Shown here: positions 3,501-25,212 of the stretch, in pieces
Position numbering within the stretch: the first letter of the stretch is position 1
How the letters are laid out: the number at the start of each line of letters is the position of its first letter
Source of the DNA: an uncultured Saprospiraceae bacterium
Lineage (GTDB): Bacteria; Bacteroidota; Bacteroidia; Chitinophagales; Saprospiraceae
Assembly (NCBI GenBank): GCA_937961455.1
Contig: CALGNN010000018.1
Location: forward strand, 1 to 63,846
DNA: 63,846 bases
Direction of reading: 5' to 3'
The notes under the pieces: model-generated
The model's input: the letters and a program-made list of their open reading frames with translations, nothing else
What the model was told of the DNA's origin: nothing
Databases searched by the model: none
Made by a program: the position numbers and the translations under genes

Positions 3501-4052
3501 TACGTCCTGTCCTCTATTATATGCGATATTTAATATTTGTTCAAAACGCTTGGGAAGTTGTTTTCTGATCAATTCTGCGATTTGACTCTTGAATTGATGG
3601 ACCTCGGCATTTGGGTAACTAAACAGTTCTTCAAATTGATCAAAGATCAAAACCTGTCTACTATCTGGTGCCTTAAATTGTCGCTCTTTTATAATACGCC
3701 ATACAGAGTCATCTGATGGAATAATTTTGCTAATTATGCTAGCATCTCCTTGTACATTTTCAAGAGATTCAAGTGTAGTTTTTAAAGGGGTTTTCTTCGA
3801 TGATTCTGTCCATGCATTAAATCGAAATTGAATACATTCATTGTTGGGATCCTCTTGAAGTTTAGGTATTAAGCCAGCGTTTATCAATGAGCTTTTACCC
3901 AATCCAGAACGTCCATGGAGAACAACCAATTTTTCTAAACTGACTAATTGATGTAACTTTTTTAAATCTTCCTTTCTACCAAAAAACAATTTTGCCATGT
4001 CTTTGGTAAAAGGTCTACCGCCTGGATATCTTTTAATTTTATCTGATTGCAT
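489..4052 (-). CDS. nSTAND-type NTPase with transmembrane helix, coiled coil and C-terminal beta-propeller
   Basis: This is a signal-transducing STAND ATPase, 1187 aa from the chosen start. Residues 24-30 are the entry motif FFGRKED. Walker A is GRSGLGKSS at 47-55 and Walker B is LIFDQFEELF around 135-144, the nSTAND1 signature. A winged-helix-like segment ends at YELSHDTLIGPAL (392-404). One transmembrane helix lies at about 438-456, preceded by a charged helix and followed by a long coiled coil (about 460-590). The remaining roughly 540 residues contain WD-like strands (IWDLNEIR, VYIWDVKGR) and read as a degenerate beta-propeller sensor. The ATG at 4052 is chosen because it overlaps the upstream stop (TAATG); an in-frame start at 4097 would overlap the neighbour by 46 nt. 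STAND proteins oligomerise after ligand sensing and switch on effectors; the trigger here is unknown. Last gene of the six-gene operon. Confidence 0.88.
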   Translation of the reverse strand: MQSDKIKRYPGGRPFTKDMAKLFFGRKEDLKKLHQLVSLEKLVVLHGRSGLGKSSLINAGLIPKLQEDPNNECIQFRFNAWTESSKKTPLKTTLESLENVQGDASIISKIIPSDDSVWRIIKERQFKAPDSRQVLIFDQFEELFSYPNAEVHQFKSQIAELIRKQLPKRFEQILNIAYNRGQDVITVDEEDALYKELNVRILFIIRSDKMHLLDQLSDYLPTIFKNNHELKALQIGGATEAIIKPASLEGDHFISNKFSYTSAAQNKIIDFLQDKDTQLIEAIQLQIVCTSFEENVISKGWTELDENNIGDLNAIVQNYYHNKLETLDTKEEKLQAARLLEDGLVDNQRKQRLTLHESQIFDLFKVDQELLNKLINIHLLRRELDQNGGYNYELSHDTLIGPALMAKELREQKENEEERIRQQKELAQERAKRRRANLFSYAMVALALISAFSFFRQYMQSKELIKKEVMLEDQNNELEKQFNALTASEEARLIALQEARDNEDEAKNQAAEANRQKIEANRQKKEAIKKTIEAEARRKEALDAQELANEQTILAKNAKNEALDNYNKAVASEKKSRILSLISQAKFLFSQGKRAKALLITKELWKLDPEREEVHLLIKEMARSPMPIVYADHSTKPRMMHSTEDLIITSTFIFNPKTQICTNIESDELLLSDDEKYILGITYHQNSNQSYHFSHRNQGTLENFKKAKYQLFETRTLENISSFQYEDIKDPKSQLGEGYDKLPDGDIVSTFPGTSCFLALDDKKEKILSIKEIKSDFFNSAIWQLSDAKDKKIISSFGNKYSPDKIGKRDNINFNTKPMQSLSNDVSAETGLMLNFETKSGNQLLSFPSSQLTYEHRNELSSENDDDLCIIKNTLLRMDDYASIPIVEFKVDVEYCYESPYVIETLEAVNPCDFQYVGRGFDEQITEGTALHRSYHFSENHPYALFWDEAGNAGIWDLNEIRIADFLPGSYHGYTWAKDEQLILTKYGNTVYIWDVKGRLIKEIEAKILHMYSLDQYLLLKENGEAYKVYNGVSQTIDGPIVENFAGFTEKGFITYDVLSGFSVGGATDWAIKKEVFEWNKDAAISSNEFQKSVNGDYRFNYSDSIPDSIAEEVYTTINKKQISIWTDEGNEKQLVDAFSLQDFVYQHFYIDNNLVIITEDRKVKIFPIQLNFDPEKYLGSKMIGWK

Positions 4053-5161
4053 TATAATCCTAGTGTAGAAGAAATTTGAGGAATCAAAGTGATACAATTA
4101 AAAATTGATTGATTCAAATTGGCTTTGTCCGTTTCAGTTGCCATTCCAGTTACTTCTTTCTTATTTAACTCGACAAAACTTTGTTGAATTTTTATCAAGT
4201 CATTGAGTAAGTCCTGAGTTAATGGAAGATGAAATTCCAAAACTGATTTAATGAGATCAATTCCTTTTTGAATTTTGTTTTTGGCAAGCAAGCCCTGAGC
4301 TTGTTTTAAATCTTGGGAGAAATCTCTTACTGCTGAACCGTCTCCCTCTTCTTTTAATAATTGCTTCTCTTCGCATATCTTATGCAAATCATGAATGAAA
4401 TCCTCTCCACTTTTTGGTAAGAAATCAATTAAAAATTCATTGCGATACAACTGGTCTTGCGACAAACTCGACTCACTGCTTGCATATTGCAATATCTTAT
4501 TAGGCTTGGCCGAAATATGATATAAAACTCTTAAAAGTAATTGCATGTACCATTTTTCATAGGGCAATCCTATAAAAACAAAAGTCTCCATGTCTTGGAT
4601 GTACTTTCTCAAGTCTTCAGACATACTTTTACCAAGAAAGATGGATTCCAAATAATTGAATAAATCTTTGTGGGTCAAGACTAAACTTTCAGATTCTTCC
4701 AAAGAACCCATGAGCCCATAGATTAATGGATTCGATAATGATGGTTTGATAAAAGGTTTAAAGGGTTGACCCATAAAATAGAAGTCATATTGAAAGGGGA
4801 GACCCTTAGCACTAAATGCTCTATTCAAAATGGCATTTGGAGACATGTTTATGATCAAAGGGAAGGGTAAGCTTGATAGTTTTTGAAAAAATTGATCTGT
4901 TTGCTCAAAATCATTTTCAAAAAAACTGCGCACACGCCTTGAGAATCTTCTTCGCTGATTGTCTTCTCTAAAAAGAAAAAATCCATCATTCTTAAAGAAA
5001 TTTTTGATCATGGCGTTTTCTGAATTCTCAACGTCAAGCTCTTTCCACATGTCCGTGGTTATCGCTTCTCCTTGAGCGTTTTTCATCACACCTGGCCCAA
5101 CAAAAAGTGCGCATTTTTCTCTACTAATAGAATCTAAAATATCTTCAAAAAAAACCTCCAT
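4052..5161 (-). CDS. SIR2-like domain protein with EAD-like C-terminal domain
   Basis: 369 aa. The N-terminus carries the Rossmann entry ALFVGPGV (18-25), in the position of the sirtuin GAG loop. GLMGSLEESESLVLTHKDLFNYL matches the SIR2-like pattern with VLT..DY, and FVFIGLPYEKWYMQLLLRVL matches the late Rossmann strand of SIR2-like conflict effectors. Such domains in Thoeris, DSR and related systems hydrolyse NAD+ (family knowledge). The GAG-to-GPG change makes catalysis uncertain here. The last 90 residues are helical and align with the adaptor at 9141-9782 (L.KK, then N..I..SI..LI), suggesting an effector-associated domain that recruits this protein to partners. It starts 14 nt after the caspase stop, and its own stop overlaps the NTPase start by 1 nt, implying translational coupling. 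It is not a canonical sirtuin deacetylase, which would carry a zinc ribbon. Confidence 0.75.
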   Translation of the reverse strand: MEVFFEDILDSISREKCALFVGPGVMKNAQGEAITTDMWKELDVENSENAMIKNFFKNDGFFLFREDNQRRRFSRRVRSFFENDFEQTDQFFQKLSSLPFPLIINMSPNAILNRAFSAKGLPFQYDFYFMGQPFKPFIKPSLSNPLIYGLMGSLEESESLVLTHKDLFNYLESIFLGKSMSEDLRKYIQDMETFVFIGLPYEKWYMQLLLRVLYHISAKPNKILQYASSESSLSQDQLYRNEFLIDFLPKSGEDFIHDLHKICEEKQLLKEEGDGSAVRDFSQDLKQAQGLLAKNKIQKGIDLIKSVLEFHLPLTQDLLNDLIKIQQSFVELNKKEVTGMATETDKANLNQSIFNCITLIPQISSTLGL

Positions 5162-5175
5162 CTCTTATTAACTAC

Positions 5176-6204
5176 TTATGCAATTTGCTTTTGAAGTTCT
5201 TTGATTTTTTGCATTAATGATGCTCTTTCATCTTGAGCTTGTAATATTTGTAATTCAGTTTTGAATACGGAGCTTGCATCGATGAAAGTGAGTTTTGTAG
5301 TTCTTAACTGTTTGATCAAGTCCGTTTGTGTTTTGAAGTTTTCTTTTAAGCCTTCAATTTCATCTTTGGTGATTTCAATTAGGAAATCATCTTTCTCAAC
5401 GACTACTTTAGGAGCATCTTTACGTTGCGCCTTAGGCACAAGTGTTAGGATAAGATCATCATCCATTTCGATCTTGACAGTAGGTCTCTGAGGCTCAGGG
5501 GATCTCTTCGGTACTTCTTTCCAGAGGTGTTGCAAGGCTTCTGTCATTCTTATATAAGAGTCATCAAACTCTTTTTTATGTTCTCCTCTCAGTACTTCTA
5601 ATAATACCTGTGTAAAGAGACTATTGTCTTCACCAATGATCCATGATAATTCATTCGCTCTACAAGAAGATACATAAGATAAGCCTGAAACGTCATCCAT
5701 TTTCTTGGCCAATTCGTCAATTTTTGTCAACCCTGTTTTAGGAGTAGCTGCTTTTTCCACAGGAGCTGATTTGGATTGATTCATAGTCATTCCTTGAGCA
5801 TGGCAACAGTCTAGAAATAGCAAAGTCTTTTTTGACTTTAGCGCTTTCAAACGCTCTTGGAGTTCTTCGGCTTTCACCCAAGTATCCTCAAAATTATCCG
5901 CATCAAATCCATTTGGGACTAAATAGTATTGATCCCAAGGTTCATACACACCTCCGTGACCTGAATAGAATATGAAGACCGTCGCATTTTCATCTGCTTT
6001 TTCTACGAGGTCATCCAAAGCTTTTAAGATTCCTTTTCGGTCTGCTTCTTCATTGACTAATATGGTAATATTTTCTGGAGGATATCCAGCTAGATTGGGA
6101 TCGGCTAAAACATTTTGAATGGCTGTTGCGTCATTTACTGTAATAGGTAAATCGTCTCCGACACCTATCAGCAAGGCGTGACCTTGCTCAAATAATGTAC
6201 TCAT
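5176..6204 (-). CDS. caspase-like cysteine peptidase (peptidase C14 family)
   Basis: 342 aa. The caspase-hemoglobinase fold is clear: strand ALLIGVGDDLP (10-20), TVFIFYSGHGG with catalytic His83, YYLVPNGFD, then TLLFLDCCHAQG with catalytic Cys134 in the DCCH context, and LSYVSSCRANELSW around the late strand. The C-terminal 100 residues are a basic and acidic helical or coiled-coil extension (from about 245) that could bind partners. No transmembrane segment or signal peptide is visible, so it is probably cytoplasmic. Prokaryotic caspases in STAND or EAD operons act as executioners that cleave host or partner proteins when activated (family knowledge); the substrate and P1 preference cannot be read here. 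It sits between the small membrane protein (35 nt) and the SIR2-like gene (14 nt). Confidence 0.92.
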   Translation of the reverse strand: MSTLFEQGHALLIGVGDDLPITVNDATAIQNVLADPNLAGYPPENITILVNEEADRKGILKALDDLVEKADENATVFIFYSGHGGVYEPWDQYYLVPNGFDADNFEDTWVKAEELQERLKALKSKKTLLFLDCCHAQGMTMNQSKSAPVEKAATPKTGLTKIDELAKKMDDVSGLSYVSSCRANELSWIIGEDNSLFTQVLLEVLRGEHKKEFDDSYIRMTEALQHLWKEVPKRSPEPQRPTVKIEMDDDLILTLVPKAQRKDAPKVVVEKDDFLIEITKDEIEGLKENFKTQTDLIKQLRTTKLTFIDASSVFKTELQILQAQDERASLMQKIKELQKQIA

Positions 6205-6239
6205 AATAGTTTTTTAAGGTGATGTAAAATAACATATTA

Positions 6240-6749
6240 TTAAATATTCAATGACTTATACATTTTTTGAAATTCCTTTAAATATTTAGAATCCAAATGG
6301 GTAGGCAATTCAGCAGCTAAATCTAAAAGCGCTGAAATAGCTTTGTAATCACTAAAATTTATTTGTCCTGTTTTATTGAGTTTTTCCAAAGCTGCTCTTG
6401 ACATAAGCGTTGAGTCTCCTGCCTTATTTTTTATTTTGTTGATGAGTTCTTCATTCCATTCCAATATTTGAGCTTTGTTAGACATGGCGTTTGAAATGTT
6501 GTAAGAGCTTGTTCCGATTTCTAAACCTCGATCAGATTTTGCTTTAGGGATTTTTGTGAAAAGGTTTTTTGCTTGTTGTACTTTATTTTCGAATGCTTCA
6601 AATTTTACTCCATCCTTATTGGCTTGAAAGCTTTTTAAATGGGCAAAAAAGTTTTTTAATTCAGACTTAAAAAATCCTAGAATGATTAATAGCGTAAGCG
6701 GCCAGATGATTACATCTAAGAGCTTAATAATAAAATCTAAAATTTCCAT
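6240..6749 (-). CDS. small membrane-anchored protein of unknown function
   Basis: 169 aa, not recognised as a named family. The N-terminus has one or two hydrophobic stretches (about residues 4-27, IIKLLDVIIWPLTLLIILGFF), followed by an amphipathic basic helix (LKNFFAHLKSFQANKDGVKFEAF) and a soluble, mainly helical domain. The layout is typical of short inner-membrane proteins with a cytoplasmic helical domain. It lies 15 nt after the cyclase and 35 nt before the caspase, so it belongs to the same transcript. It could be a membrane tether or pore-like effector for the system; nothing in the sequence proves this. Confidence 0.7.
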   Translation of the reverse strand: MEILDFIIKLLDVIIWPLTLLIILGFFKSELKNFFAHLKSFQANKDGVKFEAFENKVQQAKNLFTKIPKAKSDRGLEIGTSSYNISNAMSNKAQILEWNEELINKIKNKAGDSTLMSRAALEKLNKTGQINFSDYKAISALLDLAAELPTHLDSKYLKEFQKMYKSLNI

Positions 6750-6764
6750 TACACAGGGGTTTTA

Positions 6765-9044
6765 TCATTTCCAATAGTTGTGCAGTTTTATAAATCTTGA
6801 ATCGTCTTGCAAACTAGCAAAAAATGCATCATTGCAAAAACTACCAGTTTTATAAATTTGTCCGTTTTCGATTGCCTTTTGTAGATACAATAGACAATCA
6901 TCTTTTTTTCCTTCTGCTAAAAATAATTTTGCCATTGCGTATTCTGTCGCACCAAAATCAAATGATTCCTTCGAGTTTAAAATTGTACTCTTTGATGATT
7001 CAAAACAATCATTCAGATTTAAGCTTAGACAATTTAGGGCATTATAAGTGAGGGCTTCTGTATTTTGTGGTTCCGATAAAAGCAATTTGTCTAAGAGTTT
7101 TTTGCTTTCTTTAAAATCATCTAAATAATAATACGCCATTGATTTTTCCAAATCTGAAAAATCACTTAGCTCAAAAAACTCAACTGACTTTTTATAAAAT
7201 TGATGGGCTTTTGTTTTTTCGGATATAAGGAGCGACTCATTAGCTATAGTGAAGTATAGATAGGCAAGATCTTCTTTAGGGATCTGAGCGGCAGACATAT
7301 ACTCTTCGACTTTTGACCAACTTTTTTCTTTTACAAAGGTCCTTAGCAGATGAGTTAAGTAAGCTCTATCATAAGCCAATTCATATAAATTTAAAAACTC
7401 CTTCTGGGCTTCTTTATAGCGCTCTAGTTCTATTAAGGCAAGTCCTTTTACATACTGTCTTATCTGGCAATCAAAACATTTTGCCAATGCCAAATCTGGT
7501 TCTTTTACTTCTTCATAAATCTCTAAGACCTCTTCTGCGTCATGAACGAATTGCAAAGCCATCACCATCATAGTTAGATTTGATGTGGGGTCATAGGGAG
7601 CAAAATCATATTCTTCTTTATATCGATTATAGGCTTCCAAATTATTCCCATCCAATAGCGCATCATAGAAATACAATAAATTTTGTTGTCTTTGACTCGG
7701 TCTAAGTTTTTCTAAATTAATTTGATTCCTTAGCGAATCCATGGTGTGATAATCATCCATGTTATAATAGTAACTCAGTCGAAGTAATTTTGCTTCAAAA
7801 TAATTTGGATCGATTTTGAGAGCACTTTCTATGTGAAAAAGTTCTTCACTTTCAGGACCCATTTTAGATTCTAGAATGTGTTTGAGGGCCTCATATTTTG
7901 GCAACTCCTCTTCTATGATTAATTCGGGCAAGTCAGCAGTAGCTAGAAAAGAGAGCACCCTTTCACTTAATTGTTTTATTGCTTCGAGTGGCTCATCTTT
8001 GTGGGATGTAATTGTCTCTAAAGAGGCTGCTAGGCTCCCAGACTTGGCATCTACCATAGAGCAATCTATAAGTATGCTATCCTTATTGAGATAATAGCTA
8101 CCTGTGATAAGAGAATCTACGGCAAGATTTTGTTCTAATACGACATTAAAATCGGCACTTCCATTTTCTGCGGAAGCCATTTCATAGTAGTTGTCTATAA
8201 CCTGTGACGAAATAACAGATGCTAAATTATTTCTGCTTATTGCATGAGCGATTCTATCTTCAAGCATCTTACCAAAAATATCAAGTTCATCATTTCCCGT
8301 ATTGTTTTCAAATCCATATACAGCGATTCTTTTATCATCCGTAGCAGAAGATAGAAATTGACTTTGCTTATTCTCCCATGGAAAATCAAATCCTAAAAGT
8401 TTAAAGCTAAGTAGTGCAACAAAAAATGCTAAAAGTACATAGCTCAGTTTTGATTTGACAATTTTTTGCCAAAGGCTTTCATTAACTGCTTTTCCTTTGA
8501 AGGTTCCTTTAATTTGTTTTTTGTCAGGTATTACTAAGCCCTCATTTGCAAAGGCAAATATTTCAATGGGTTCCTCTACATTTTTAAAGACATAGGTGCC
8601 TACAGAACTAAATTGAATATCTGCTTGGCTCTTTAGTTTTTGTTGGGTTGCTTTAGACATTAAAATTGCACCAGGTACAGCCATGGATTCAATCCTAGCA
8701 GCAATATTTATGGAATCACCATAAATGTCATTTTCAAGAAACATCACATCGCCCACATGAATGCCAATCCTTAATGGGATGACGGGTTCTTTTTGAAATA
8801 TTCTTTGAAGGTCTATGGCACAATGCGCGGCGTTTAAAACGCTACCAAATAAACACATGCTTCCATCACCATAGTTTTTAGTGATTTCACCATCATATTT
8901 TGACACATATTTTTGAAGGGTGCTTTGATAATGTTTAAGCAATTGCATTGCCAACTTCTCATTGGATTGCATCAATGCTGTATAACCAGCGATATCAGCA
9001 AAAAATATGGCAGCAAGTTTTCTTTTGCCCTTTGGATTAGACAT
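6765..9044 (-). CDS. membrane class III adenylate cyclase with TolB/FlgO-like region and TPR repeats
   Basis: 759 aa. Residues 9-165 are a class III nucleotide cyclase domain: metal-binding Asp17 (FFADIAG) and Asp60 (NYGDG), the purine-selecting pair Lys56 and Asp106 (typical of ATP rather than GTP use), and the transition-state pair Asn113 and Arg117 (SINIAARIE). A transmembrane helix follows at about 200-218. Next is a TolB/FlgO-like region beginning DKRIAVYGFENNTG (about 235), then helical TPR-type repeats to the C-terminus. This cyclase-TM-TolB-TPR plan is common in Bacteroidota and alphaproteobacteria (family knowledge). All catalytic residues appear present, so cAMP production is likely. 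It follows the adaptor gene by 96 nt and leads the rest of the operon. No cyclic-nucleotide-binding domain was seen in the window, so the receptor is unknown. Confidence 0.9.
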   Translation of the reverse strand: MSNPKGKRKLAAIFFADIAGYTALMQSNEKLAMQLLKHYQSTLQKYVSKYDGEITKNYGDGSMCLFGSVLNAAHCAIDLQRIFQKEPVIPLRIGIHVGDVMFLENDIYGDSINIAARIESMAVPGAILMSKATQQKLKSQADIQFSSVGTYVFKNVEEPIEIFAFANEGLVIPDKKQIKGTFKGKAVNESLWQKIVKSKLSYVLLAFFVALLSFKLLGFDFPWENKQSQFLSSATDDKRIAVYGFENNTGNDELDIFGKMLEDRIAHAISRNNLASVISSQVIDNYYEMASAENGSADFNVVLEQNLAVDSLITGSYYLNKDSILIDCSMVDAKSGSLAASLETITSHKDEPLEAIKQLSERVLSFLATADLPELIIEEELPKYEALKHILESKMGPESEELFHIESALKIDPNYFEAKLLRLSYYYNMDDYHTMDSLRNQINLEKLRPSQRQQNLLYFYDALLDGNNLEAYNRYKEEYDFAPYDPTSNLTMMVMALQFVHDAEEVLEIYEEVKEPDLALAKCFDCQIRQYVKGLALIELERYKEAQKEFLNLYELAYDRAYLTHLLRTFVKEKSWSKVEEYMSAAQIPKEDLAYLYFTIANESLLISEKTKAHQFYKKSVEFFELSDFSDLEKSMAYYYLDDFKESKKLLDKLLLSEPQNTEALTYNALNCLSLNLNDCFESSKSTILNSKESFDFGATEYAMAKLFLAEGKKDDCLLYLQKAIENGQIYKTGSFCNDAFFASLQDDSRFIKLHNYWK

Positions 9045-9140
9045 TAAGAAAATTTTTGGAGTGCTTTAAATACATAAAACTACTTGAGAAGTCAATTGAA
9101 AAAATAAATTTCTTTGCCTTTACAAGCAAAATAGGCTTAT

Positions 9141-9782
9141 TTACTTTGGTCTAATTTTCGCTCCAGGTTTTGGTTTAATCTTCGCTCCAGGTTTCGACAT
9201 TTCCGCCTGGTCGTCGGGTTCTGTCTCGCTATTAAAATTACGAATTTGTTCCTTTAAAGAATCCATTTCTTTTTCTAACTCTTCAATGTTTAATTGAATT
9301 TTAAACAAGTTGGCACCCGGTAATGTAAAAGTCTCTTCTTTTCTTAAACTCTTCAATTCTCTCAATTTCAAACTCGCTTCTTCTTGTAATTTAGCTAATC
9401 TATCAAGCTTTATTTCTTGTGGCTTTGGCACTTCGACAAGTACCTTTGGAGCATCGATTGGAGCGTCTTTTGCAAGGGTATCAGGTGCTTGAGTATCAAT
9501 TGGACTTTGCTCTTTTTCACCACCTAAGTCTACTTCGTCATCTTCCAGTTCTTCAATAAGCATTAAAATTGAAGCTTTGATTTTGTTTTGTGCTATTCTA
9601 CCATTTTCCTCTGAAATGAGCTCATTAGCCAGTTTCTTTTTTAATTCTTCTTGTCTTGATGAAATCATAATCATCTGGTGTGAATATTCTTGATCATCTA
9701 AAAATTCTAATCGATCTAACATTTGCGAAATGACCTTAGGGATTTTAGCCTTGGCAATGAGTTCTTTCCATTTGTCAATCAT
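9141..9782 (-). CDS. effector-associated-domain (EAD) adaptor with coiled coil and basic GAKIRPK tail
   Basis: 213 aa and the first gene of the six-gene operon. Residues 1-80 contain a helical module, SSRQEELKKKLANELIS followed by NKIKASILMLIEEL, that fits the EAD11-like pattern found next to STAND, caspase and SIR2 effectors (family assignment is inference from the motif). An acidic linker, a proline-rich region and a coiled coil (about 130-185) follow. The last residues repeat PGAKI twice (KPGAKIKPKPGAKIRPK). The same tail ends the gene at the left edge of the window. EADs are thought to bring effectors and NTPases together by homotypic contacts, so this protein is the best candidate scaffold of the system. 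A 96-nt gap separates it from the cyclase; no transmembrane segment is seen. Confidence 0.75.
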   Translation of the reverse strand: MIDKWKELIAKAKIPKVISQMLDRLEFLDDQEYSHQMIMISSRQEELKKKLANELISEENGRIAQNKIKASILMLIEELEDDEVDLGGEKEQSPIDTQAPDTLAKDAPIDAPKVLVEVPKPQEIKLDRLAKLQEEASLKLRELKSLRKEETFTLPGANLFKIQLNIEELEKEMDSLKEQIRNFNSETEPDDQAEMSKPGAKIKPKPGAKIRPK

Positions 9783-14703: not shown

Positions 14704-17127
14704 TTATTGGGGATCAACATTGATTGAAATTCTAACAGATTTCAAGTCCGATTGTTTTGTAAGAAACAAATTTGCTTCGTAAATACTCTTTTTAATTCCC
14801 TCCATTTTGTCTCTTTGTTTTTCGTGTTTGATAACTACATCAACATGATATCTTCCAAACATTCTTTCTATTGATGGAGTGATAGGACCTTGTATTCGAT
14901 CACCCCATTTCTTTTTGAGGAATACTACCATTAAGTGAGCAGCTCTTTCTGCAATGCTTTTTTCCTTATGTTTAAGTGTGAGATGGATCATGCGTACGAA
15001 AGGAGGGTAATGAAATAATTGTCGCTCTCTCATGCGCTTAAACGCAAAATTATAATAATCAGAGCCTTTTATAGAATGGTAAAATGCCTGCTCAGGATTC
15101 CAACTTTGTATTAAGACTTTCGTTTGCGCTCCTTTCTTTTCTAAAAGACTTTGGATATACTGAAAAGCTTTTTCTTCTGATCTAAAATCAGGGCGGTTAA
15201 TCATTTGATCTCCACTTACAAAAGCAATGAGTTTTAAAGAGGATGCGTTAATCATCTTCGCTGCTAATTGTGTGCCTACAAGAATATCAATTTTTTTAGC
15301 TAGAAATTTTTCTTGAATGATCTGAAATCGTTTGCGTCCCGAAGCCGTATCTGAATCAACTCTATGGATTTTTGCCATAGGAAAAATAAGTTCGAGTTCT
15401 TCTTCTAATTTTTGTGTTCCAAATCCTTTGAGCTCTAAATCTGTGCTTTGGCATTCTTTACAAGTAGGAATGTATCGTGCTTTATAATCACAATAGTGAC
15501 AGATAAATTTTTTGCTAAATTGATGATAGGTTAACTTAACGTCACAATTTGGACAGCTTGCCTTCCAGTCACAATTTTTGCAGATTAAGACTGGAGCATA
15601 TCCTCTTCTATTTTTGATTATGATTACTTGAGCATTTTGTTCTAATGCTGTCGCAATTTCCTTTGTCAATTTCTTGCTAAAGCTACCGTCAAGGGCTCTT
15701 TGTTTTGCAGCCTTTTGTAAATCAATTAATTCGATCTCATTCCCCAGATTATTACTTTCTGCCTTTTGAAGAGAAAGGTATTTTTTTTGATGATTATTTA
15801 GAAGGCTTTCAAAAGAGGGTGTATTACTGAATAAACAAATTTTTGCCTTTAGTTGATGTGCTAATATGATTGCTGCATCCCTTGCATGATACCTTGGGCT
15901 TGGATCAAATTGTTTATAAGCGGGATCATGTTCTTGAAGAAGGAGGATGTGTTTTAAATTTTTGAATGGTAAGAATAATGAAGATCGAGTACCAATAATA
16001 AAACGTACATCTTTTTGCACTTTATCCCAGATTTCATATCTCACATCGTTTCCCTGTTTTGAGTTTTGAAAGATGAAATCATTAGCATATTCATTTTGAA
16101 TAATAGTTAATGCCTCATGTTCAAAATCTATATTTGGAATTAAGATTAGCGTTTGCTCGCCTGGTTGATATTTTTTATTTATTGCATATAGGTAGGGGAT
16201 TAATTCAGCGTCGTTAAGTAATTGTACTGCATCTTTTTTTAGTAAATTCTTAATTTTCTTTTGTTGCTTAGGGTCTATCTTGACACCACTGAAATTTACT
16301 TTTTTTGTAGGTTCTTCTGTTTCAATTCGACTCACCACACGATCAATAAAAACAATAATATTTTTCTCTTCAAGAGCCTTTAGGATATTTGACTTAATAT
16401 GGGCGAGGGATGTCCTAGCAATTTCTTTTTGGCTTTCACTTGCTTCAATGATGGCTAAGAGGGCCTCTTGTTGTTTAGCAGCTCTTCTTAGATCAATTTC
16501 GTAGATGTTGCTCAGCTGATCATCATCCAAGCTTGGGTGCAGTCTAATGAATTTTTGTGTTTTGGATTTGTAGGTTTTTTGAATGTGGTGAGAAGTCCTT
16601 ATCCACTTTTTCTCTGTCATCGCTCTGAGCAAACCTAAGATGGATTTTTTACCCAACAGTTTTTTCAAATCATGCGTTTTGACAAATTCATCTTTGCGCA
16701 ATGCTCTGTAAATAATTTCTTCTTCAAGGCTAAGTGCTTCTTCTAAAAGATCATTGTCTGTTTGTAAAAATGCATATGCATCACTGCTTAATAAATAATG
16801 ACTGGGCAGTGCAGCCTGCATCACTAAACCTAAAGAGCACATGTAGTATGATGCGATCCATTCCCAGTAAGTAAATTGTTGTTCATTGATAATAGGCTTT
16901 TCATCAATGATGTTGAGAATAGCTTTAATCTTCTTGTATTTTGGTTTGTTTTGATGAACCTTATAGACGAGGGCACCATATAATTTTGAAGTCCCGAATA
17001 TCACTTCAACTCTTTGTCCTTTCGCAATCCTTTCCACCAAAGGAGTAGGTACGGAATAGCTAAACGTGCCTTCCAATGCCAGAGGCAGTAAGACATCAAC
17101 ATAGTATTCATTTAAGGACTTATTCAC
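14704..17127 (-). CDS. priA: PriA-family replication restart protein with degenerate helicase motifs
   Basis: 807 aa from a GTG start. The N-terminal 3'-DNA-binding domain (YYVDVLLPLALEGTFSYSVP) and eight zinc-binding cysteines (CKNC, CPNC, CHYC, CKEC, about 516-559) are intact, as are flanking PriA signatures (IIGTRSSLFLPFKNL, YKQFDPSPRYHARD, NRRGYAPVLIC). The ATPase motifs are not: the Walker A site GVTGSGKTEVY is replaced by LNDAELIPYLY (about 304-314), DEEH by LQEH (397-400), GSATP by FSNTP (about 433-437), AKG by AKM (623-625), and QVAGRAGR by a segment reading IQSLLEKKGA. The frame is continuous with no frameshift, so this is sequence drift under retained folding. Actinobacterial PriA proteins are known to lack helicase motifs while keeping the restart role; a similar DnaB-loading scaffold is the likely function here. 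Confidence 0.92.
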   Translation of the reverse strand: MNKSLNEYYVDVLLPLALEGTFSYSVPTPLVERIAKGQRVEVIFGTSKLYGALVYKVHQNKPKYKKIKAILNIIDEKPIINEQQFTYWEWIASYYMCSLGLVMQAALPSHYLLSSDAYAFLQTDNDLLEEALSLEEEIIYRALRKDEFVKTHDLKKLLGKKSILGLLRAMTEKKWIRTSHHIQKTYKSKTQKFIRLHPSLDDDQLSNIYEIDLRRAAKQQEALLAIIEASESQKEIARTSLAHIKSNILKALEEKNIIVFIDRVVSRIETEEPTKKVNFSGVKIDPKQQKKIKNLLKKDAVQLLNDAELIPYLYAINKKYQPGEQTLILIPNIDFEHEALTIIQNEYANDFIFQNSKQGNDVRYEIWDKVQKDVRFIIGTRSSLFLPFKNLKHILLLQEHDPAYKQFDPSPRYHARDAAIILAHQLKAKICLFSNTPSFESLLNNHQKKYLSLQKAESNNLGNEIELIDLQKAAKQRALDGSFSKKLTKEIATALEQNAQVIIIKNRRGYAPVLICKNCDWKASCPNCDVKLTYHQFSKKFICHYCDYKARYIPTCKECQSTDLELKGFGTQKLEEELELIFPMAKIHRVDSDTASGRKRFQIIQEKFLAKKIDILVGTQLAAKMINASSLKLIAFVSGDQMINRPDFRSEEKAFQYIQSLLEKKGAQTKVLIQSWNPEQAFYHSIKGSDYYNFAFKRMRERQLFHYPPFVRMIHLTLKHKEKSIAERAAHLMVVFLKKKWGDRIQGPITPSIERMFGRYHVDVVIKHEKQRDKMEGIKKSIYEANLFLTKQSDLKSVRISINVDPQ

Positions 17128-17168: not shown

Positions 17169-18035
17169 TTAATACCCAAATATTTCTGTAGCCATCCTGA
17201 AGGTATTCGCATGTGCTTCTATTATGGTGGCAATATTTGGAGCATAGCCGCCTCCCATACTTACTGCAATAGGGACTTTGAAATCTTTTGCCCATTGAAA
17301 AACCAAGCGATCTCTTTCTTTCGCACCTTCGATACTTAAGGATAGTCTACCAAGCTTGTCTACAGCTAAAATATCAACACCTGATAAGTAAAATATGAGA
17401 TCTGGCTTTTCTTGTTTTATGATTTGAGGAATATGATGATCCATTGCCTGCAAGTATGTATCATCCTTGCAGTGATCTTCCAATGCAACATCTAAATCTG
17501 ATTGTTCTTTTCTTAAGGGATAATTGTTTTTGCCATGAAAACTCAAAGTGAACACCCTTGGTTCATTTTGAAATATTGCTGCTGTTCCATTCCCTTGATG
17601 AACATCTAAATCAATAATTAGAATTTTTTCTAGAAGTCGTTCATGTAATAAATAATTTGAGGCAATAGCAAAATCATTAAAGATGCAAAAACCTTCACCT
17701 CGATCTGAATAAGCATGATGTGTGCCTCCAGCAATATTTAATGAAACACTATTATCGATGGCATATTTTGCACAATCAATGGTCCCTTGAGCAATACAGC
17801 GACCTCTGTGAATAAGGTCCGAGCGCACAGGGAAACCAATACTTCTTATTTCTTTTTTACTGAGCGTAAGATTTTTTAGTTTATCTAAATAGTCTTTACT
17901 ATGCGTCAGTAGAATGATCTCATCAGTTAAAAATCCAGGGCTAAAAAATTGATGTTCTTCGACGGTTCCTTCAAGCATTAATTGCTGAGGCAAGAGTTCA
18001 TATTTGTCCATTGGAAACCGATGACCATCCGGCAA
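17169..18035 (-). CDS. AcuC-type histone-deacetylase-fold hydrolase
   Basis: Zinc-dependent deacetylase of the arginase/HDAC superfamily, 288 aa from the TTG at 18035. Motifs are GGTHHAYSDRGEGFCIFND (His106 and His107), the zinc-binding IIDLDVHQGNG (Asp144, His146), LSGVDIL for the later Asp, and MGGGYAPN near the C-terminus. The conserved N-terminus KIAFAPIYKYQLPDGHRFPM is encoded in frame upstream of the TTG, but that stretch has no ATG, GTG or TTG. The true start may be an ATT at 18065, or the protein begins without its first strand. Bacterial members deacetylate acetyl-CoA synthetase or small acetylated amines (family knowledge); the substrate here is not evident. It follows the giant adhesin on the same strand. 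Confidence 0.88.
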   Translation of the reverse strand: MPDGHRFPMDKYELLPQQLMLEGTVEEHQFFSPGFLTDEIILLTHSKDYLDKLKNLTLSKKEIRSIGFPVRSDLIHRGRCIAQGTIDCAKYAIDNSVSLNIAGGTHHAYSDRGEGFCIFNDFAIASNYLLHERLLEKILIIDLDVHQGNGTAAIFQNEPRVFTLSFHGKNNYPLRKEQSDLDVALEDHCKDDTYLQAMDHHIPQIIKQEKPDLIFYLSGVDILAVDKLGRLSLSIEGAKERDRLVFQWAKDFKVPIAVSMGGGYAPNIATIIEAHANTFRMATEIFGY

Positions 18036-18099: not shown

Positions 18100-21000
18100 T
18101 TATCTAATGATAGTTACATCTCCAGAAAGAGCGCTTCTGATGCCATCGCTTCCCTCTATGATAATATGATAAACGAAAACGTCAGGATTAAGTTTAAGTC
18201 CTTTAAATGTTCCATCCCATCCTTCTGGTGCGTTGTTGGTATTGAAATTATTTTTTTCGAAAATGACATCACCCCATCGATTATATATGTGCATCTCAAG
18301 TATGATATCTGAGGCATTTTTAGAATATGCAGTGAAGTAATCATTGATGCCATCACTGTTAGGGCTAAACATATTTGGAATGTAATATTTTGTTTCATCA
18401 GCATCTATGAATACGTTTATGGTGCCTGTAGCGCTGCATCCATTACCATCTGTATAGGTCACACTAAATGACTGATTACCTGTAACTACCCAAAAAGGGA
18501 TTGGGCAATCGTTACATGATAAATCAGTATTATTCGTCCATGAAATCTGATCGTAGTTGAAGTTGGCTGAATTTTCAAGAAATACAGTGTCTCCAATCAT
18601 GACTCCAGTAATGTCATTAGCACTTACCGTATAGTCTATTATTGATTCCCCAATGGTATAAGGATACTCATAAAGACATTGATTGCCGTCCATGATAAAT
18701 ATACTACCTGTCCCTGGTGGAATGTTATCTATGCTAACTGGGAAGTTGTTAGCTAAGCTTTGCATTACATCATTGTTCAATGAATAAAAGTAGGGCCCAG
18801 CTCCACTAAGCGAGAATATATTAATAGATCCTAAAAGTTCATCATTGATACAAACTGCATCAATGGTTTCGAAGATCAAATCATTTGTACTCGCTGTTAA
18901 TTGAATATTATAAATGGTGTCACATTCATTGATATTATTTGAAAGGACTGTATCTATACCTGTTAAATTATTGATGTCATAAATGCTTCCAGCTATAATC
19001 ATAGTATCTGATGGACAAAGAGTCCCAGTTATATTTTCATTGCAAAAATTTAAATCAGAACAAGGTATGAGTGGGATTGAATTGAACAAGACAGAACAGC
19101 CAGGAGCATCACTTTCATAAAATTCGATTCCATGAGAAGTGCCATCAGCTAAAAATTGAACAATGTAATTTTGACCATAAAACGAAGAGCCTAAAATAGT
19201 AGGTGGATTCGTGAGTTCTGTAGTGTAAGATCCAATTGAATTTGGATTATTAGAAAACACATCAAACTCAAATCTATAATAATCATCTGAAGGATCTGCC
19301 GTTCCATTGTTGAAACATTCAAATGAAACTAAGTTGACTTCTGGGACAGCAGGCTGGAGTAAATCAAAAGTCGGACTCATCACAAAACAACTTGGATCTC
19401 CTATGACTGAGACCACTAATTGATAAGAACCATTAGTCACACTTGGGAATAAAGGACTGCTTTGGAAAGTCAAGCCTCCATCAATAGAATATTGTGCATT
19501 TTGAATGTTTGCTGGAATAAGAATTTCAATACTTCCTGGATTGCCATCGCAGTCAGGGTCTGCAATATTAGATTGAATAACAAAATCAAATGCTGGGGCA
19601 TCCAGCACAATTGGGCCACTCCATGCAGTAATACAATTTGGGTCATTTCCAGACATTACGATAATATCATAAGTGCCATCAAATAGATCGGGGAATACAT
19701 TGTTGCTTGAAAAAGTGATTCCTCCATCAATGGAATACGTCAAATTATTTCCTGTTGCTGTGATGTCGATACTGCCATCATTTACACCACACTGATTTGG
19801 GTTGCTATATAAAACATCTGTAATCACAGGAAGCTCACAATTGGCATTGCAAGGATCAAAAGGTCCAAAATTAATATTATCGGTACAAGCTGGAATATCC
19901 GCATCGGTAAAAATAAAGTTCACCGTTGAGCCATCCGCGGGATAAGTTATTTGTTCTGTCACTCCATAATCGAATGGACCAAATCCACTGCTAATAAAAT
20001 AACTGTTTGAGCTTCCTGGATTCACGCTGCTTGCAGATACCGTAATATCATAAAAGTCATCAAGTGGATCATTGGGCGTTCCATTATCATTACAGAGTGC
20101 AGTAAATTGATCTATGGTCAAAACACAAATATCAGTGCAAGGATTAAGTGGACCTATGATGGTATCAAAGTCACAAGCGTTATCAAATTCAACGAATGAT
20201 AATTCTGGACTTGAACCATCAGCTGGAAGAATCAAAGTATGATTGGTGTTGGAAGAATATAGACCAAATGTTTGAGCTCCTATTTCAATGTTAAAGTTGT
20301 TTGTCGCTTGCTCATTCTCAAGAATCATGTTGAAATTGATCTCGTAAAAATCATCTGTGTCATCATTTGCAGTTCCATTGTCATTACAAATCATTTCGAA
20401 GCTACTCGTTGTAAAATCACAATCATTAGAACAGGTGTTGAGTTGGGGGAGGGCTTCATCAAGGGAACAACTCAAATCATCAATATCAAAAAAGCTGATG
20501 TCAGTGACTAAGCCATTAGTTGCTATGCTAACGTTGATGAATGTATCAACATCGTAAGGGAAAGGTCCATAAATATCACTTTCAAAGTCAACATTAAATT
20601 GATTTGAATTGCCACCATTAGTTGCGCTGATATTAAAATTAATAGTGAAAAAGTCATCACTTGGATCCGTAGGTGTTCCATTGTTATTGCAAACTACCTC
20701 CAAATCATTTTCCTCAATAGAACATGGGTTTGTATTGCAAGCATCTAATGGACCAATGTTTTGCATATCTCCACAGCCTGCTAGGTCAACATCTTCAAAA
20801 ATTGCATCTGGACTCAGTCCATCGGCAGGAATCAAGAAGTTGCCTCCAAGTCCATATTGGAAGGGACCATAAACAACATTGTTAATTGTCACCGTAAAGT
20901 TTTCTGATACTCCAAAATTGTTTCCGGTGGCATTCACATTGAGTTGATATTGATCATCACTAGGGTCATTAGGCGTACCTCCATCATTGCAATTCCAATC

Positions 21001-24000
21001 CAATTGTGTTATTTGTATGTCACATTCAGAGGAGCAGTTATCAAGAGGTCCAATATTTACTGAAGCAGAGCAAGTATTGATAGAGATGTCATAGTAAACT
21101 AAATTTACATTGCTTCCATCTGCAGCTAAGGTGAAACTACCACCAGCATTATAAGAAAATGGACCGTAGGTATCTGCTCCGACATCTACAAAAAATTCTC
21201 CAGTGATTCCTGGGTTGAAAGCTTCAGCATTCACTAAAATATTATAAAAGTCATCTGTGGGATCTGAAGGAGTGTTATTATCGTCGCATATAAATTCACT
21301 GGTTAAGATGTTTAATGAACAGCCAAGCGAACACGGATCTAGAGGGCCGATTGAGACATTGTCTAAACATGCATTATCATCTACATCGAAGAAACTTAAG
21401 TTGATATTTGAGCCATCTGCAGGAAGATTAAATATCCCACCAATGGCATAGTCATATGGACCATAGGTATTGATTCCATCACTAACAATATATTGGTTGG
21501 AAGCACCTTGGTTAGTTCCAGTAGCAGTTACTGTTATGACATAAAAGTCATCTGAAGGATCACCTTCTGTATTGTTATTATTACAAATTATGCTTGCAGC
21601 TCCATCAATATCACAATTCGTAGAGCATGCATCTAGTGGACCTATTTGTGTCTGATCAGTACAGCTAGCATCATCTAAATCTTCAAATACTAAAGTTGGT
21701 GAATTGCCATCTGCAGGGAGTGTAAAACTACCATTTACATTGTAGTTAAAAGGGCCAAAAGTATCTGCACCTATGATCACATTGTATTGTCCTGAGTTTC
21801 CTGGATTAATGGCACTTGCATTTACAGTTATCGTATAAAAGTCATCAGAAGGATCTGCATTTGTTCCATTGTCATCACAACTAAAAAAAGCTTGATTGAT
21901 AGTCAAGACACATTCATCGGAACAGGTATCCAGAGGTCCAAGTAAAGCTGTTGTCGCACATGATGGGTCGTCTTCATCTAATATGTTAACGGTAAAACTG
22001 CCACCAATGGCAGGTACATTGAAAGAGCCTCCAACATCGTAAGGAAATGGACCAAATGTAAAAGCAAGAAAGCTAACATTAAACTCATTTGATGGACCAG
22101 GATTAGTATTGTCTACTACGATAGTAACTTCAATAAAATCATCAGAAGGGTCAGTGCCAGTTCCATTATCATTACATATGAAACTGAATACCGAAACATT
22201 AATTCCACAATCAAAGGAACATGGTGACAAAACATTTGATGTCTGATTTATACTACAGCTGTTGTCATCAGTATCATAAATTTGAATATTGTGTGTTGTT
22301 CCATCTGCAGGATAGCTTAACTGGTTATTTGTTGTCCCATATGTAAAGGTATTTAATGTGCCATTTAAATCTACAGTATAGCTATTGCTAACTCCTGGGT
22401 TACTTGCATCTGCATCAACGTTGATTATATAAAAATCATCAGATGGGTCGGCTGGAGTTCCATTGTCGTTACACAGTTCAGTATAATTAACGAGAAAGAT
22501 GCCACAGGCTCCTGAGCAGTTGTCTAAGTTTGAAGTACTCTGTGTAAAGCCGCAGCTGTTGTCGTCTGTGTCAAAAATTTGAATGGTATAAGAGTTCCCA
22601 TCTGCTGGGACATTAAAACTATTATTTACAGTCCCATAAGTAAACGTATTAATGATTCCATTGAAATCTACAGTGTAAGAATTACTGACTCCCGGGTTGC
22701 TTGCATTAGCGTCTAAGGTTATAATATAAAAATCGTCAGAAGGATCTGCAGGAGTTCCATTATCATTACAGAGTTCAGTATAACTTACGAGGCTGATTCC
22801 ACAATCCGAAGAACATGATCCTGGGTCGACTATGGTAACATCTATGGTGCAACTTGCATCGTCATTGTCGATGATGGTAATCACAACATTCCCCGCTCCT
22901 GCACTTCCTGGATCAAACATGAATGCAGTAGCAGATCCATAGTTTGCATTGAATGGAAAGACAGAGCCGTTTGGTCCGATCACAGAATAAGTAGCGCCTA
23001 AGTTATCTCCAATAGGATTAAGTTCGAAACTCAAAAAATCATCAGTTGGATCACTTGGAGTTCCATTATCATCGCAGATGATGGGGCCTAATTGCGCATC
23101 AGTAATATTACAAGATCCTGAGCAAGTGCCTGGGTCAGGTATTGTTATATTTATAAAGCAAGTTGCGTCATCCGCATCTGTAATAGTTATAGTTACATCT
23201 CCTCCACCAGCACTTCCTGTTTGTAAATCAAAACTGCTTGGAACACCATAGCTTCCAGTTGAAGGCGTTACATTACCATTATTTGCAGTAAGTATATAAT
23301 TCGTGCCATTATTGAATGCCAATGGATTTATGGTGAAAGTGATAAAGTCATCAGAATCATCAGAAGGGGTGCCATTATCATTGCAAATGACATTGTTTAA
23401 TTGTGCATCAGTAATGTCACAAGTAGATGAACATGTAAACAGCGTCACAGAGAGATCTGAGTTTGAACAACCTGCATCATCGGTATCTGTAAAAATGAAA
23501 GTGTAAGTATTATCATCAGCATTCAGACAAAAACTTTCGAGTATCCCGTAGCTAAATGGTCCATAGGTATTTGATCCAATAGTCAAATCATAAGTACCAG
23601 AACTTCCCCCATTTATGGCACTTACATTCATCTCAAAACAAAGTAGGTCATCGCTAGGGTCTGACGGAGTTCCATTATCATCACAAGCTTGTGGATTGAA
23701 TATGTCGACACTTAGTGAGCAGTTTAAGTTTATACCTGCACAAGGAATACAGACACCATTACAACCCATGGTTACAGAGTCCATCACGGTCGCTGAATTG
23801 CCATCATCGCAAGCCAAATTGTATTGAAATTCAGAAGCACATGGATCCAAAGGTCCTAAGTTGAGAACATCAACACACGAATTATTGTCGCCATCGTAAA
23901 CACTAATTGAAATATTTTGTCCTGCAGGCAATCCTGTCAAAGTGAAATTAGTGCCGTAATTAAAAGGCCCCGAAATGCCATTGTAATCGACAAAATATTC

Positions 24001-25212
24001 ATTGCTTGGATTTCCAAATGTCAGATTGGCTGACCCTTCTATTTCAAATCCTCCTGAGCCATCACAGATAAGATTGATTTGGTTGGCATTAAGAGAATTG
24101 TTAGCTAATTGTGCACTTCCAAAACTTACTGCACAATTAGGCGCATCCAATACTGATACACTAATAGGATAATTGCCAGCTGAAAGATTATCGAAGATAT
24201 TAGAGGACTGATAATTCAATCCATCAATAGCGTATACTAAGTCAGTTCCTGAAGCATTGATTGTAATTTGGCCGTCATTGTTACATGGTTGAATTACTTC
24301 AAAGCTGATATTCGTTGGTGCATCTGGTTCTGAAATAACCACTTGAGACAAATTAGAAATACAATTCGTTGTAGCACCGACTCTAGCGAGCACATCATAA
24401 TTGCCAGCCGTCAGATCCATGAATATATTTGAACTTTGCCATGTTAGACCATTATCTATGGAATACTCATAAGTAGGGTCATCAGGTGTTACAGTGATAG
24501 TTCCATCATCACCTCCGCAATCTGTAACATTGGTATTTTGTGTCAAAATACTTGGTGGAGTAAGTGGGTCAATGGTGATGGTAAATGAGTTAGAAGAAAC
24601 ACAAATTCCCTGCATGGTCAATACGGTATAAGTCCCATTGCTTAATCCCGTAAATACATTATTGGGATCCCAGTTAAGGCCTCCATCTATAGAGTATAGA
24701 TAGGAATTTGCTACAGGTAAAACCTCAATGCTACCATTTGCATTAAGACAATCGGTAATTTGATTTACGATTGGCGTATTGTTCATTGGGTCATCTATCA
24801 CATCCAGCAAAAAACTTTCTTCATCAGTACAACCTTCAGGAGTAGTGCTTAAAACATAATACGTCGTGCTAGTAGTTGGAGACACATTGCCTGTAATTTC
24901 GTTGGTGTTATTTGCAGGTGTTCCTGAGTGGTAAGTGATCGTTCCAATATTGGAATTGTTATCATTAACGACTAGATCACTTAAAGTAAAATCTTCTCCA
25001 TTACAAATAGCACTTGGTGGTACAATGCTGATATCGGGAACACCACCAACGGTGATCATAATAGTCGCTACGGCATCGTTGCAATTGATGCCATCTAAAG
25101 TATAAGTTATGTCGTAAGGGCCTCCAGGAGTTGCATTAGAAAAGTCGACATCTGCTGGGTTGGAAAAATCCAATCCAAGGCCTCCATCATCCCAAGTACC
25201 TCCAGCTACATA
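18100..25212 (-). pseudogene. C-terminal major part of a giant T9SS-secreted repeat adhesin, separated from its N-terminus by an in-frame TGA
   Basis: A continuous frame of about 2370 codons. A nearby TTG at 25173 would give 2357 aa, but without a signal peptide. It begins mid-domain and carries SprB-like repeats (YSIDGGLNW, YSIDNGLTWQSSN, YAIDGLNYQSSN), then a tandem array of about 100-residue modules, more SprB-like repeats, and ends with a gliding-motility-associated C-terminal domain: IPNMFSPNSDGINDYF, MHIYNRWGDVIFE, NAPEGWDGTFKG, VFVYHIIIEGSDG. That domain is a type B T9SS sorting signal (family knowledge). The frame is exactly in register with the upstream secreted N-terminal part, so both are one gene of 2984 codons from 27051. 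The broken piece alone could not be secreted. Readthrough, sequencing error or true pseudogenisation are all possible. Confidence 0.85.
19040..23720 (-). repeat. about fourteen ~100-residue Asp/Asn-rich protein modules
   Basis: Thirteen tandem copies (about 19840-23720) plus one separated copy (about 19040-19340). The consensus starts with Cys, then after about ten residues C.DNGTP.DPSDDFY.I, then NPG.SN.Y, FGPF.Y, a LPADG turn, D.DD..C and ends GPLD.CS. Paired cysteines and dense Asp/Asn suggest disulfide-stabilised, possibly calcium-binding extracellular beta-modules (inference). Confidence 0.9.

Follow-up and report, generated by a model that had tools for sequence, protein, structure and literature searches.

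The priA gene carried by the window, a 63,846-nucleotide stretch of DNA from an uncultured Saprospiraceae bacterium, can be regarded with good confidence as a single-copy, vertically inherited Saprospiraceae priA that has turned into a pseudohelicase, whose product would mark forks and seat DnaB without unwinding them. Judged from its sequence, the protein very likely does not hydrolyze ATP and has likely retained fork binding. By analogy with known systems, a role as a scaffold for replication restart, in partnership with DciA, is plausible. PriA pseudohelicases are a known kind of protein, described by Lopper et al. in 2015 for Deinococcus radiodurans (PMC4504706). Since a motorless PriA is known from Deinococcus, the window PriA looks like another, independent case.

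A full-length PriA with degenerate ATPase motifs

The gene is a single frame with a GTG start and encodes 807 amino acids with no internal stop (Table 1). The sequence-only reading, a first description of this DNA, had called it an unbroken PriA frame, and both NCBIfam and Pfam bear this out. PriA family models match along the full length. NF004066 covers residues 11-806 (E 1.4e-146, 490 bits, below the strict cut-off of 813 for that model) and TIGR00595 scores 385.7 bits, above its cut-off of 230.35. The Pfam models of the 3′ DNA-binding domain (3′BD; PF17764), the zinc ribbon of the cysteine-rich region (CRR; PF18319) and the C-terminal domain (CTD; PriA_C, PF18074) all exceed their gathering scores, and no Pfam helicase-domain match is found in the protein at E 0.001. 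All eight zinc cysteines noted in that reading are present, at residues 516, 519, 525, 528, 543, 546, 556 and 559. Solved PriA structures (the 8fak, 4nl4 and 6dgd group) align with residues 11-115 and 311-774. An AlphaFold model (mean pLDDT 85.7, pTM 0.82) predicts a PriA fold in which that of both helicase lobes is retained; it superposes on E. coli PriA bound to a fork (8fak_H) with a Z score of 32.5 and 2.8 Å over 622 residues, and its five best structural matches are all PriA.

The window protein was aligned with 55 relatives, namely 29 of the 39 members of a first relative set and 26 further family members, which are best-scoring matches and not a random draw. Motif names and boundaries follow SF2 conventions and were placed onto the alignment; all domain and motif boundaries in PriA are our own placements. 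In the window PriA, each of the five motifs I, II, III, V and VI has degenerated. Strict patterns for all five are matched by 49 of the 55 relatives, and the other six carry conservative variants (DEAH, SKG, AKG, GRPGR or TASP); the window PriA matches none of the five. The Walker A GKT, the DEEH, the SAT and the motif V and VI residues that mark an active SF2 PriA helicase are not found as such.

In motif I, LLHGVTGSGKT of the relatives has become LLN----DAEL and GKT is absent. DEEHD of motif II reads LQEHD, G(T/S)ATPS of motif III reads FSNTPS, and TKGLDF of motif V reads AKMINA. In motif VI, QVSGRAGRK is replaced by SLLEKKG with a gap of three amino acids, and the arginines are gone. The claim that every ATPase motif had been replaced therefore holds for the motifs as wholes but not for each residue, as EHD of motif II, TP of motif III and the lysine of motif V survive. 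Motif Ia has merely three of its seven conserved columns left. Motif Ib (3/3), the KQ..P.PRY..RD loop (8/8), NRRG (5/5) and GTQ (3/3) keep all of theirs. The loop, which reads KQFDPSPRYHARD in the window PriA, is presumably the equivalent of the aromatic-rich loop of PriA.

Table 1. Positions of priA, its domains and motifs, and the upstream neighbor in the window
Feature	Position	Strand	Remarks
priA, ATPase motifs lost	14704..17127	-	807 codons, GTG start
3′ DNA-binding domain (3′BD), residues 11-108	16804..17097	-	Pfam PF17764, E 7.6e-26; ordinary evolutionary rate
Lost motif I / Walker A, residues 303-312	16192..16221	-	2/8 conserved columns kept; 4 residues shorter than relatives
Degenerate motif II / Walker B, residues 395-401	15925..15945	-	3/5 conserved columns kept; LQEHD
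Retained loop KQFDPSPRYHARD, residues 405-417	15877..15915	-	8/8 conserved columns kept
Degenerate motif III, residues 433-438	15814..15831	-	2/4 conserved columns kept; FSNTPS
Cysteine-rich zinc region (CRR), residues 516-559	15451..15582	-	Pfam PF18319; eight cysteines
Lost motif V, residues 623-631	15235..15261	-	1/5 conserved columns kept
Lost motif VI / arginine fingers, residues 659-668	15124..15153	-	1/6 conserved columns kept; 3 residues deleted
PriA C-terminal domain (CTD), residues 709-806	14710..15003	-	Pfam PF18074, E 3.5e-10
Histone-deacetylase-like gene, upstream syntenic neighbor	17169..18035	-	Pfam PF00850

Locus, copy number and distribution

The window belongs to a draft genome (G000) of 4.62 Mb in 250 contigs, 96.27% complete, and its genus is known from this one genome. 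The window RpoC shares 74-80% identity with Saprospiraceae-titled records among the best 80 matches listed, in keeping with a placement in this family. The genome holds one PriA match; the second, intact priA that the sequence-only reading had allowed for was looked for and not found at this level of completeness. The histone-deacetylase-like gene upstream, itself normally conserved, adjoins priA, at 57-62% identity, in at least 10 of the 55 relative loci, a lower bound because the flanks span about 1.5 kb and some are cut. These loci include that of the nearest genome by RpoB (L026 of G009), where the PriA motifs are intact. Two other neighbors were compared, the CHMI and histidine-kinase genes, and neither adjoins priA in any of the 55 loci. 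Since the upstream neighbor is syntenic, the gene occupies the ancestral priA locus, and a horizontal origin is rejected in view of this synteny and the NCBIfam scores. Exact peptide patterns retrieved no close relative of the window PriA among the genome contigs searched. Viral contigs gave two remote matches (28% identity over about 100 residues), and 32 phage records matched, the best 5 of the 32 being unannotated and about 32% identical or less.

Two further regions of the window deserve mention. Positions 4052-9782 encode an EAD11 and SIR2-like protein, a caspase-like protein, a guanylate-cyclase-domain protein and a further EAD11 protein, a cluster that, from its domains, looks like a conflict or signaling system with effector-associated domains. 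Positions 18100-25173 hold a frame of 2357 amino acids with many similar repeats (around CNDNGTPSDPSDDF), the end of which reads by eye like a secretion- or gliding-type C-terminal domain.

To gauge the spread of motor loss by score, lobe 1 taken from an intact relative was searched against 398 genomes of the family and 296 of the phylum, the latter at least 90% complete. Neither survey detected by score a second PriA with wrecked motifs, a measure insensitive to a PriA inactivated by few residues, as in Deinococcus. In the family, about 364 of 398 genomes match at E 1.1e-35 or better and the window genome at 9.9e-30. About 33 have no lobe-1 match better than 1e-10; 24 of these lack any PriA match, and two of the other nine (G010 and G276) hold fragments. 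In the phylum, 293 of 296 match at 1.2e-40 or better, the exceptions being the window genome, G639, whose PriA is split over two contigs with its motifs intact, and G529. Assemblies G529 and G137, each 99% complete, are without a PriA match, through either an assembly gap or a true loss.

Genomes with intermediate lobe-1 scores, namely six species of genus g76 (G231, G306, G372, G376, G380 and G388) as well as G074 and G193, were considered as carriers of degenerate PriAs and rejected, the motifs inside their fragments being intact. G052 was added to the motif reading owing to its short PriA match, and in the nine genomes with weak or short matches each ATPase motif inside the fragments is intact; those of G074 and G193 begin at contig ends. 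In several g76 species, an insertion separates motifs Ia and Ib in lobe 1 of a PriA whose motifs are all intact. It was read in L059 and L062, where it differs in length and sequence, and was deduced from split matches in L061, L063 and L065 (G376, G380 and G388). For G306, the check covered the motifs alone and not the insertion. The independent loss in a Bacteroidota lineage proposed in the sequence-only reading agrees with the intact motifs of all 55 aligned relatives and with both score surveys. These sequence comparisons support a motor loss that occurred on the window lineage.

Selective constraint and alternative explanations

Columns kept in at least 95% of the 55 relatives were defined as conserved, 149 in total. 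Outside the helicase lobes, 48 of 51 survive in the window PriA, versus 59 of 98 inside (Fisher p 6e-6); of those inside, the ATP motifs retain 9 of 28 and the rest of the lobes 50 of 70 (Fisher p 5e-4). These two contrasts argue that the loss of the motifs is not due to chance. By domain, the 3′BD keeps 15/16, the winged helix 7/9, the CRR (residues 516-575) 16/16 and the CTD (residues 701-807) 10/10, in line with the earlier claim that the DNA-binding parts are kept. When each relative is left out in turn, it keeps at least 94% of such columns; the window PriA keeps 72%.

Terminal branches were obtained with FastTree from the 26 genomes with both RpoB and PriA, with a separate topology for each domain tree and domain ranges offset by one residue from those of the column counts. 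The RpoB branch of the window organism (0.12) compares with a mean of 0.14 for the others, so its RpoB is not fast-evolving. The 3′BD branch (0.58) lies near the mean of the relatives (0.52), which places the domain that reads the fork end under ordinary constraint. The lobes, at 1.74 against a mean of 0.39 and a highest relative of 0.63, evolve about 4.4 times faster than in the relatives. Acceleration is not limited to the lobes: the branch also exceeds the mean of the relatives for the winged helix (1.90, mean 0.67) and the CRR (1.06, mean 0.42) and, by a smaller margin, for the CTD (1.09, mean 0.71). The speed of the CRR and the winged helix argues against any simple account in which the lobes alone have changed.

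This wide acceleration, which spares only the 3′BD and is mild in the CTD, is what a decaying gene might display, in a lineage where PriA restart is dispensable or where an intact PriA elsewhere leaves the window copy to drift, and the genome is not closed. Such decay is nevertheless quite unlikely. Neutral drift over the approximately 640 replacements inferred in the lobes predicts about 50 stops, or 39 if the excess over the relatives alone is counted, and none is observed in 807 codons; every indel relative to the majority of relatives is in frame, including the four residues missing from the P-loop of motif I and the three missing from motif VI. The conserved columns outside the lobes, the ordinary rate of the 3′BD and the failure to find a second copy also speak against it. 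The fast winged helix and CRR could alternatively reflect recruitment of PriA to a different job outside restart, as a neofunctionalized DNA-binding protein. In E. coli, the CRR is reported to help build a pore for single-stranded DNA (ssDNA) and to dock PriB (PMC10175261). This alternative is unlikely as well, since the protein is the only PriA found and sits in the ancestral gene position, the conserved columns of the 3′BD and CTD and the zinc ligands are kept, and genes for DnaB and DciA are present.

The retained fold of both lobes in the model and the surviving EHD and TP could be taken to mean that ATP is still bound and hydrolyzed through a rebuilt, non-canonical site. This is very improbable, because the P-loop, shorter by four residues, lacks GKT, motif VI is left without its arginines, and the single substitution K230R is reported to abolish the ATPase and helicase activities of E. 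coli PriA (PMC4504706). An artefact of assembly or sequencing, for which the draft state of 250 contigs and the single genome in the genus might speak, is the least credible explanation and borders on the negligible. The replacements are spread across the lobes in an unbroken frame, the codon usage and GC3 of priA do not depart from the range spanned by 11 other window genes, the neighbor is syntenic and RpoB is normal. Intact motifs do occur in relatives, which the sequence-only reading had thought might betray assembly errors, yet such an error is not credible because hundreds of replacements have introduced no stop and the indels are in frame. Conversion of the one priA found into a pseudohelicase is the preferred explanation.

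Relation to known PriA proteins and a putative role in restart

Canonical PriA (E. coli and K. pneumoniae; 8fak, 4nl4 and 6dgd) shares with the window PriA its domain order and predicted fold, the eight zinc cysteines, the 3′BD and the CTD, but has five ATPase motifs where those of the window PriA are all degenerate. Actinobacterial PriA, the comparison drawn in the sequence-only reading, is generally described as lacking helicase motifs. It is not close to the window PriA, as the PRK14873 models, which we take to represent actinobacterial PriA, score at most 144 bits versus 490 for the best PRK05580 model.

The documented precedent for loss of the PriA motor is Deinococcus-Thermus (PMC4504706). 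PriA of D. radiodurans has no ATPase or helicase activity, binds forks and ssDNA, and shows evidence of DnaB binding (PMC4504706). Like the window PriA, it is full-length, has lost ATPase motifs and kept its DNA-binding parts, and occurs with DnaB; by sequence, the window protein would belong to this type of pseudohelicase, with motif loss and retained DNA-binding parts. The two differ in extent. In the D. radiodurans protein, the Walker A lysine is an arginine, and matches to motifs I and II are poor across the aligned members of Deinococcus-Thermus. The window PriA, which comes from one Bacteroidota genus, has a shortened P-loop, and degeneration extends to every one of motifs I, II, III, V and VI. 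Among the literature matches listed, mainly open-access, no report of a Bacteroidota PriA pseudohelicase appeared.

Work in E. coli provides a second precedent (PMC10175261). When PriA binds a fork there, its CRR swings and a pore for the lagging-strand ssDNA takes shape. Together with PriB, DnaT and DnaC, the ATPase-inactive K230A protein still allows DnaB to be loaded in vitro, and PriA-PriB restart in vivo is independent of the PriA ATPase. The involvement of PriB, DnaT and DnaC weakens the parallel; in the window genome, the analysis covered DnaB and DciA. We infer a pure scaffold, as the sequence-only reading had proposed, which would fit the retained fork-binding parts, the D. radiodurans protein and the E. 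coli K230 work. In such a mechanism, abandoned forks would be recognized through the 3′BD, the zinc domain and the CTD, and PriA would hold the lagging-strand ssDNA. It would then seat DnaB, the replicative helicase, most likely together with DciA as its loader, and this seating would proceed without ATP hydrolysis by PriA or duplex unwinding.

The window genome has one match each for DnaB and DciA. Its DnaB frame is plain, with 512 amino acids. DnaB frames of 808-1277 amino acids occur in four related genomes (L119, L122, L123 and L124 of G006, G014, G001 and G003, respectively), with DnaB_C split in three of the four, which suggests inteins. That DciA works with PriA has been put forward as a proposal (PMC9825169). 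DciA is present in all 25 genomes examined; among 14 control genomes, seven match (Thermus, Deinobacterium, Corynebacterium, Caulobacter, Synechococcus, Bacteroides and Thermotoga). Thermus and Deinobacterium thus combine DciA with membership of Deinococcus-Thermus, for which motor loss has been published. Corynebacterium belongs to Actinobacteria, whose PriA would likewise lack its motor. We know of no such loss in Caulobacter, Synechococcus, Bacteroides or Thermotoga. Because DciA also occurs in these groups without known loss, its association with motor loss is merely a lead.

It is conceivable, though we hold it somewhat doubtful, that the PriA motor is an accessory shed repeatedly where DciA loads DnaB, the window PriA being a fork-reading clamp and a dock for DciA-DnaB while another helicase, or none, clears the lagging strand. 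Helicase_C has 14 matches in the genome, among them RecQ-, Mfd-, UvrB- and RecG-like sequences by eye, which show that other helicases exist. If this proposal is true, the window lineage would be an independent and more complete example of PriA's scaffold and motor functions being separated in nature.

The helicase motifs of PriA are described as well conserved, though E. coli can live without the activity (PMC4504706). Motor loss in one lineage, with all aligned relatives intact and the 3′BD under ordinary constraint, amounts to a natural experiment in what restart needs, and the window lineage makes it possible to ask whether losing the motor accompanies helicase loading of the DciA type.
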